Origin: an uncultured Paracoccaceae bacterium
GTDB taxonomy: Bacteria; Pseudomonadota; Alphaproteobacteria; Rhodobacterales; Rhodobacteraceae
Direction: 5' to 3'
Length of the DNA stretch: 12,187 nucleotides
Assembly (NCBI GenBank): GCA_913054485.1
Contig: CAJXHQ010000036.1
Coordinates: 1-12,187 of the forward strand
Shown: in pieces, positions 5,473-8,227 of the stretch
Layout: every line of letters starts with the position of its first letter
How positions within the stretch are numbered: the stretch's first letter is position 1
Position numbers and translations under genes: made by a program
The notes under the pieces: model-generated
Databases searched by the model: none
Told to the model about the DNA's origin: nothing
Seen by the model: the letters and a program-made list of their open reading frames with translations, nothing else

Positions 5473-6870
5473 TTAAATTTTTATCGGCTGGTTGCTGCCC
5501 AGTGACCCTGTTTGCCCCGCCGCTGCGGCGTCGATCTTGCTGCGCGGCCAAGAGACTTCGACGATCGCGCCCAAACGCTCAGAATCGGGGCGGATCTTCT
5601 GGTAAGGGTCAGTGCCATTGGCAAAGCGCAGCTGCGCGCCGCTGCGTTCCAGCAGGGTTTTGGCGATAAACAGACCCAGCCCCATGCCCTCGTATTCGGG
5701 GCGCCGGCTGCGCTCGCGCTCGCTGCGGCGGCGGCGCATGAAGGGATCGCCGATCCGGCCGATGATATGCGGCGGGTAACCGTGGCCGTCGTCGGTGATC
5801 CGGATCCGGATCCAGCTGGCGCTCCAGGCGGTTTCCACCCAGACATTGCCCTTGGCGAAATCCACTGCGTTCTGCACCAGGTTGCGCAGCCCGTGGATTA
5901 CCTCGGGCTTGCGCAGGATGGTGGGCTGCTGCCGGCTGCCGTCCTCCTCCGGGCCTTCGCTGATGTGGATGAATTTGCCGCGGTGCATATGCGGCTCGGC
6001 AGCTTCCTCGATCACCGCCGAGACCGGTGCCTGGCGCAGGTGCAGGTCATCTTTGCCGGCCCGGCCCATACTGCGCAGGATGTCTCGGCAGCGGTCGGCC
6101 TACTCGCGGATCAGTGCGGCATCTTCGCGCAGCTCGGGGTCATCCTCCAGCTCTTCGATCAGCTCGGCGCTGGCCAGTTTGATGGTCGCCAGCGGCGTGC
6201 CCATTTCATGTGCGGCCGCCGCGATCACGCCCCCAAGGTCGGTCAGCTTCTGCTCGCGCGCCAGCGCCATTTGTGTTGCCGCCAGCGCATCCGACATCGA
6301 CCGCATCTCGGCCGCGATTTTGTAGGAATAGGCGCCGAGGAACATCACCGCGATGACAATGGCGACCCAGTTTCCGAATACAAAAATCTCCGGGATGCGC
6401 AGAATGAAGCCCTGGCCGGTGCGCAGCGGCAGATGAAACTCGGCCAGCAGCGTCACCAGGATGATTGCGGCAGCGCCGATAATCAGGGTCGAGCGCAGAC
6501 GCATCATATTGGCCGATATGGTCACTGGCCCCAATACCAGCAGCGCGAAAGGATTGTGCAGCCCGCCCGTAAGATAGAGCAGGAAGGAGAGCTGCAGGAG
6601 GTCGAAAAGGATGGTCAGGAAGTTTTCAAACTCCGACAGGCGCTTGTTTTCCGGAAACAGCACCATCGCCGAGAGGTTGCCGGCCACCGAGATGCCAATG
6701 GCCACGTAGCACAGCAGCAACTGCAACTGCAGATCGAACATCCGCTGCGCCACGGTGATTGCTGTGACCTGGCCGGCAATAGCCACCCAGCGCAGCAGGA
6801 TCAGCGTGCGCAGCCGGATCCAATGGCTGCGTTCCTGGCCGCTCAACAGGCCGATCTGGGGATCACTCAT
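5473..6870 (-). pseudogene. regB: RegB/PrrB redox sensor histidine kinase, interrupted by an in-frame amber stop
   Basis: RegB is the membrane sensor kinase that phosphorylates RegA according to redox state and the quinone pool. The start at 6870 has GGAG seven bases upstream. Residues 20-185 hold about six membrane segments, and the quinone-binding motif GGLHNPF is at 102-108. The His box AAAAHEMGTPLATIK has the phospho-acceptor His221. Codon 257 is TAG (6100-6102). The same frame then continues without damage for 208 more codons: ADRC with the redox-active Cys261, N box around 327-339, DDGHG at 360-364, GDPF at 374-377, and GMGLGL at 395-400, ending at TAA (5473). The whole frame is 465 codons, normal for RegB, and the expected residue at 257 is Gln (CAG), so one C-to-T change explains it. 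The visible products would be a 256-residue membrane/His-box fragment and, if translation restarted at the ATG at 6069, a 198-residue ATPase fragment. I saw no good ribosome-binding site for that restart. Confidence 0.9.
6100..6102 (-). other. Premature TAG codon inside regB
   Basis: The minus-strand codons here read GAG TAG GCC GAC CGC TGC (Glu, stop, Ala, Asp, Arg, Cys). Both sides are in the same frame and both match RegB. RegB proteins normally read IREQADRC at this point, so the stop replaces Gln. It lies 36 codons after His221 and four codons before Cys261. Confidence 0.9.
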
Positions 6871-7672: not shown

Positions 7673-8227
7673 ATGGCTGAAGCTGCCTTTCAGGACATTG
7701 GCCCCGACAATTCCCTGCTCCTGGTCGATGATGACGAGCCCTTTCTGCGGCGTCTCGGCAAAGCGATGGAGAAGCGCGGCTTTTCTATCGAGACGGCGGG
7801 GTCGGTTGCGGCAGGATCCGCCATCGCCACTGCCCGCCCGCCGGCCTATGCGGTGGTCGACCTGCGGCTGGAGGACGGCAACGGGCTGGATGTGGTGGAA
7901 ATCCTGCGGGAAAAACGCCCGGACTGCCGGGTGGTGGTGCTGACCGGCTATGGCGCCATTGCCACGGCCGTTGCGGCGGTGAAGATCGGCGCAACGGATT
8001 ACCTGTCCAAACCGGCCGATGCCACCGACATCACCAATGCGCTGCTGGCCGGCGATGATGAGCTGCCGCCGCCGCCCGAGAACCCAATGAGCGCCGACCG
8101 GGTGCGCTGGGAGCATATCCAGCGGGTTTATGAGCTCTGCGACCGCAATGTCTCGGAAACTGCGCGGCGGCTGAACATGCACCGCCGCACCCTGCAGCGC
8201 ATCCTGGCCAAGCGCAGCCCCAAGTAA
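7673..8227 (+). CDS. regA: RegA/PrrA redox response regulator
   Basis: This 184-residue protein is the cognate DNA-binding regulator of RegB. The receiver domain has the acidic pocket VDDDE (residues 18-22), the phosphorylation site Asp63 in VVDLRLEDGNG, Thr91 in LTGYG, and Lys113 in LSKPAD. A PPPP linker (132-135) follows. A Fis-type helix-turn-helix then occupies about 158-179 (RNVSETARRLNMHRRTLQRILA). This is the canonical RegA length and layout, and Asp63 matches the numbering of R. capsulatus RegA. RegA controls respiratory oxidases and other redox-dependent genes; no photosynthesis genes are present in this window. The ATG at 7673 has GGAG eight bases upstream; a GTG at 7643 is in frame but adds residues not typical of the family. 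The gene appears fully intact even though its partner kinase gene is interrupted. Confidence 0.97.
   Translation: MAEAAFQDIGPDNSLLLVDDDEPFLRRLGKAMEKRGFSIETAGSVAAGSAIATARPPAYAVVDLRLEDGNGLDVVEILREKRPDCRVVVLTGYGAIATAVAAVKIGATDYLSKPADATDITNALLAGDDELPPPPENPMSADRVRWEHIQRVYELCDRNVSETARRLNMHRRTLQRILAKRSPK

Follow-up and report, generated by a model that had tools for sequence, protein, structure and literature searches.

The window, which is the whole 12,187-nucleotide stretch of DNA analysed here, is one complete contig of a draft genome (G000) that comprises 692 contigs and 3.84 Mb, is 75% complete, and has a longest contig of 29.8 kb. It carries an interrupted regB gene in the gene order with senC and regA expected of RegB, with the following features:

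5473..6099, minus strand: regB codons 258-465 and the normal TAA stop, with Cys261 and the ATPase domain (NF045988 258-462; HATPase_c)
5473..6069, minus strand: open reading frame starting at the ATG of codon 268, without Cys261; the only listed restart usable by a two-piece kinase (mechanical ORF listing; translation hypothetical)
6088..6090, minus strand: Cys261, counterpart of the redox-active Cys265 (Cys in 73/73 distinct relatives)
6100..6102, minus strand: in-frame TAG at regB codon 257 (sequence)
6103..6870, minus strand: regB codons 1-256, with the membrane domain, quinone motif and His221 (NF045988 1-256 of 462; 6TM_PilS and HisKA)
6208..6210, minus strand: His221, phospho-acceptor by position (His in 73/73 distinct relatives)
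6547..6567, minus strand: GGLHNPF, which fits the quinone-binding motif GGXXNPF (sequence; motif as given in PMC8191878)
6956..7582, plus strand: senC, intact, with a putative start (SCO1-SenC 1-132 of 134)
7673..8227, plus strand: regA, intact (NF033791 1-173 of 173, 319 bits against a cut-off of 250)

Read directly from the sequence, codon 257 of regB is TAG (window 6102-6100, minus strand), and when X is placed at the stop, 6870-5473 of the minus strand forms a 465-codon frame in which codon 257 is the sole interruption. The two pieces were searched apart against NF045988 (NCBIfam, sensor histidine kinase RegB) and match positions 1-256 and 258-462 of its 462, so that exactly one model position is missing. 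The upstream piece scores 423 bits and the downstream piece 346 bits, each alone being below the whole-protein cut-off of 570. The HisKA match ends within the upstream piece (profile positions 4-44 of 66, slightly below the curated cut-off), and the Pfam domain HATPase_c falls in the downstream piece. An earlier note on this DNA had described a TAG in an otherwise intact RegB frame, with RegB sequence on both sides, that cuts off the redox cysteine and the ATPase domain next to intact RegA and SenC, and all of this was borne out. His221 and Cys261 also lie where the note had placed them, 40 residues apart; the phospho-acceptor of R. capsulatus RegB is His225. PMC8191878 gives Cys-265 for this protein, and also GGXXNPF as the quinone-binding motif.

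The locus resembles the RegB/PrrB/ActS redox-responsive sensor kinases (NF045988, NF033792) in that its two pieces cover the equivalog model end to end and encode the quinone motif, the phospho-acceptor histidine, the downstream redox cysteine, and the ATPase domain. It differs in the TAG at codon 257 of this draft, where those kinases have a single open frame joining the sensor and ATPase domains. A second regB copy in the genome was rejected, the sole other DNA match being 34 bp long (E 7e-4). Plasmid relatives were also dismissed (all 30 records below 60% identity), as was a link to photosynthesis (reaction-centre families are absent from both genomes of the genus, n=2).

Alignment of regB with relatives, a check that the earlier note had proposed, covered 76 loci, 2 of which are duplicates of the sister gene, leaving 73 distinct relatives besides the window's own copy. 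Codon 257 encodes Gln in 70/73 of these (57 CAG and 13 CAA), the remaining three being TCT, AGC, and GAG, and none of the 73 has a stop there. Similarly, residue 257 is Gln in 120/120 database proteins (best 120 of 7994), one of which, a RegB-like protein, carries Pro where the phospho-acceptor His would be. These counts agree with the claim that RegB normally has Gln at this position. The further claim that one C-to-T change suffices also holds: the sister genome of the same genus (G001) and most relatives have CAG, and the change is a simple transition. Among the matches listed, the closest database proteins are 89% identical to the RegB here, so other records of the same species were not seen. 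Across 129 columns conserved at 95% or more, regB here departs at only 2, one of them codon 257, and on this alignment the departure at codon 257 exceeds chance.

One explanation is a real and recent nonsense allele, reflecting either strain-level loss of RegB or early gene decay in the lineage. The truncated protein would keep the sensor and the histidine and lack the ATPase domain, and RegA would rely on other kinases or small phosphodonors. This is possible but doubtful. The remaining regB frame is intact, as expected of a recent allele, and loss of RegB is tolerated, the protein being dispensable within the family. Of 36 same-family genomes, 32 have a close RegB (E of at most 2e-98); it is missing from G015, G029, G030, and G034 (best match at E 1e-8 or worse, or none at all), two of which are 97-98% complete. 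Additionally, regB lies in two overlapping frames in 2 of the 32 (G014:C1:1156585-1157939 and G023:C168:8697-10021); these are possibly real frameshifts, and G014 is 99% complete in 2 contigs. However, this branch shows no elevated nonsynonymous change. Raw nonsynonymous differences from the sister (36/206 codons downstream of the stop, 20/256 upstream) looked suggestive of relaxed selection past the stop, but an outgroup puts the excess on no special branch. Downstream of the stop, polarised amino-acid changes number 1 on this branch versus 4 on the sister branch, and differences from the outgroup number 57 here versus 60 in the sister. The relaxed constraint expected after a break in a pseudogene was thus not seen in this comparison, although it would be invisible if the break were very recent.

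The frequency of comparable stops was examined in 870 kb of G000 (61 contigs, among them the window) and 1.56 Mb of G001 (80 stretches). Alignments of G001 genes with G000 at an identity of at least 70% covered 126 genes and 48,932 codons. Eight stop positions were met, of which two, in regB and panC, are in well-aligned coding frames. The other six were set aside: four lie at poorly aligned edges (three of them in L159, the fourth in L160), and two in L095 show an antisense-frame codon-position pattern. In the reverse comparison, 0/14 stop positions were judged clean, with a possible exception in an in-frame stop of the sister locus L208, opposite L141. In both genomes of the genus panC is single-copy, with an internal stop in G000 and none in G001:

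L093 3236 (G000 contig C2): lone in-frame TAA in panC; sister copy without the stop

Only one frame slip relative to the sister, itself self-compensated, was found in the 126 genes; it consists of two compensating slips within about 40 codons (L093 18153-18279).

A codon-usage score, which needs no reference, was also used to flag stops flanked by coding sequence on both sides. A stricter filter, which excluded stops with an ATG among the 15 codons that follow, left 21 candidates in G000 and 12 in G001, and the pieces of 14/21 and 12/12, respectively, were scanned with Pfam. The same Pfam family continues across the stop in 6/14 scanned candidates of G000 (0.87 Mb) versus 1/12 of G001 (1.56 Mb), and with G000 making up 36% of the sequence, the binomial probability of 6 versus 1 is 0.010. 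The families split in G000 are DAO, TMP-TENI (thiE), 3HCDH_N (3-hydroxyacyl-CoA dehydrogenase), DctM, and ACR_tran (AcrB-family) twice, the upstream match of one ACR_tran split being weak and under the curated cut-off. The only split in G001 is an IS91-type transposase with an in-frame TAG (L119 18996). Supported by other evidence or lying outside the filter are the stops in regB and panC and two in a single further gene:

L146 11991 and 11529 (G000 contig C35): two in-frame stops in a class-III aminotransferase, near a contig end

An 834-base alignment pairs the aminotransferase DNA with a stretch of G001 of the same length, and the two stops lie 199 and 661 bases from the contig end; low coverage is presumably common at such ends. 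Besides regB, the 870 kb of G000 therefore hold nine supported lone stops in eight other genes. Four further lone stops are likely, in a lytic transglycosylase, a GntR-type regulator, an AMP-binding enzyme, and a sulfatase.

The ten supported stops, regB included, comprise 5 TAA, 4 TAG, and 1 TGA. Judged by codon usage, a random base change within a gene creates a stop in 2.6% of cases. As a rough estimate, ten stops in 870 kb would correspond to about 380 changed bases, or about 4 in 10,000 and about half a wrong base per regB-sized gene; the figure of 380 is a minimum, since many stops escape the scan. The share of TAA (5/10) exceeds the 27% expected from random changes.

This mixture of stop codons bears on whether readthrough or suppression of the regB stop yields a low level of full-length RegB, which is very unlikely. 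Both the frame and its constraint do persist beyond the stop. However, the other interruptions include TAA and TGA as well as TAG, all three codons also terminate genes here (TGA 268, TAA 79, TAG 65), and the sister has a sense codon at the position. No suppressor tRNA with a CUA anticodon is among the 13 tRNAs found, an absence that proves little, since most tRNAs of this 75% complete genome escaped the search. Amber decoding, which would restrict internal stops to TAG, is thus not indicated. Less probable still, and hardly credible, is a RegB of two polypeptides: a sensor and histidine part that stops after codon 256, and an ATPase part of 198 residues whose translation begins anew at codon 268. 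An in-frame ATG does lie 11 codons past the stop, its open reading frame contains HATPase_c, and separate histidine and ATPase domains of EnvZ can complement each other in vitro. Against this, the break falls inside the dimerisation helices, Cys261 would be in neither piece, and such an arrangement at codon 257 occurs in 0/73 relatives. More generally, the stops could all be real, with lone nonsense codons scattered through conserved genes whose proteins stay under constraint because some readthrough occurs at a low level or translation restarts to give fragments; RegB, as a sensor lacking its redox cysteine, would then work with a separate ATPase piece. We give this very little credence.

The explanation that we favour, with a probability of roughly two-thirds, is that the regB TAG is a wrong consensus base of a fragmented draft assembly, and that the stop is in the file and not in the cell. 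The same draft has similar lone stops in unrelated genes, and they are rare in the sister; we infer from this that the lone stops are errors rather than real mutations. The TAG would then be one of a number of scattered substitution errors, and would share with lone nonsense changes in draft assemblies the single substitution, the otherwise intact frame, and the presence of several unrelated cases in one assembly. Real gene decay would also scatter stops, and the panC and thiE stops would be compatible with a host-dependent bacterium undergoing decay. However, decay should bring frame-shifting indels, of which the 126 genes show only the one compensated case, and regB is not set apart from the other stops. 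The three kinds of stop, the hits in single-copy biosynthetic genes, and the scarcity of frame slips fit substitution errors better than decay, though not decisively. Some observations count against a wrong base: the change in regB from the codon of its relatives is a simple transition, which is frequent among real mutations; TAA is over-represented; the comparison with the sister yields small counts, with 2 clean stops in 126 genes; and the sister itself has the possible in-frame stop in L208. The earlier note had listed a loss-of-function allele, a sequencing error, and amber readthrough without singling one out; of these, sequencing error is now favoured, the allele is the weaker candidate, and readthrough is very unlikely. 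The position of the stop between the histidine and the cysteine, which the note had found striking, is most simply a coincidence, one hit among many that fell in a well-known gene.

No report of a regB stop of this kind was found in the literature searched. The finding serves as a caution that a lone stop in a draft genome needs to be judged by how often the assembly in question contains such stops, and at best the regB here is one unverified broken copy in a draft marine bacterial genome. If the base is wrong, the organism would carry an ordinary full-length RegB, with its membrane quinone sensor, redox cysteine, and ATPase domain, that would phosphorylate RegA. If the allele is real, it would offer a naturally occurring case in which to test RegA in the absence of its kinase.
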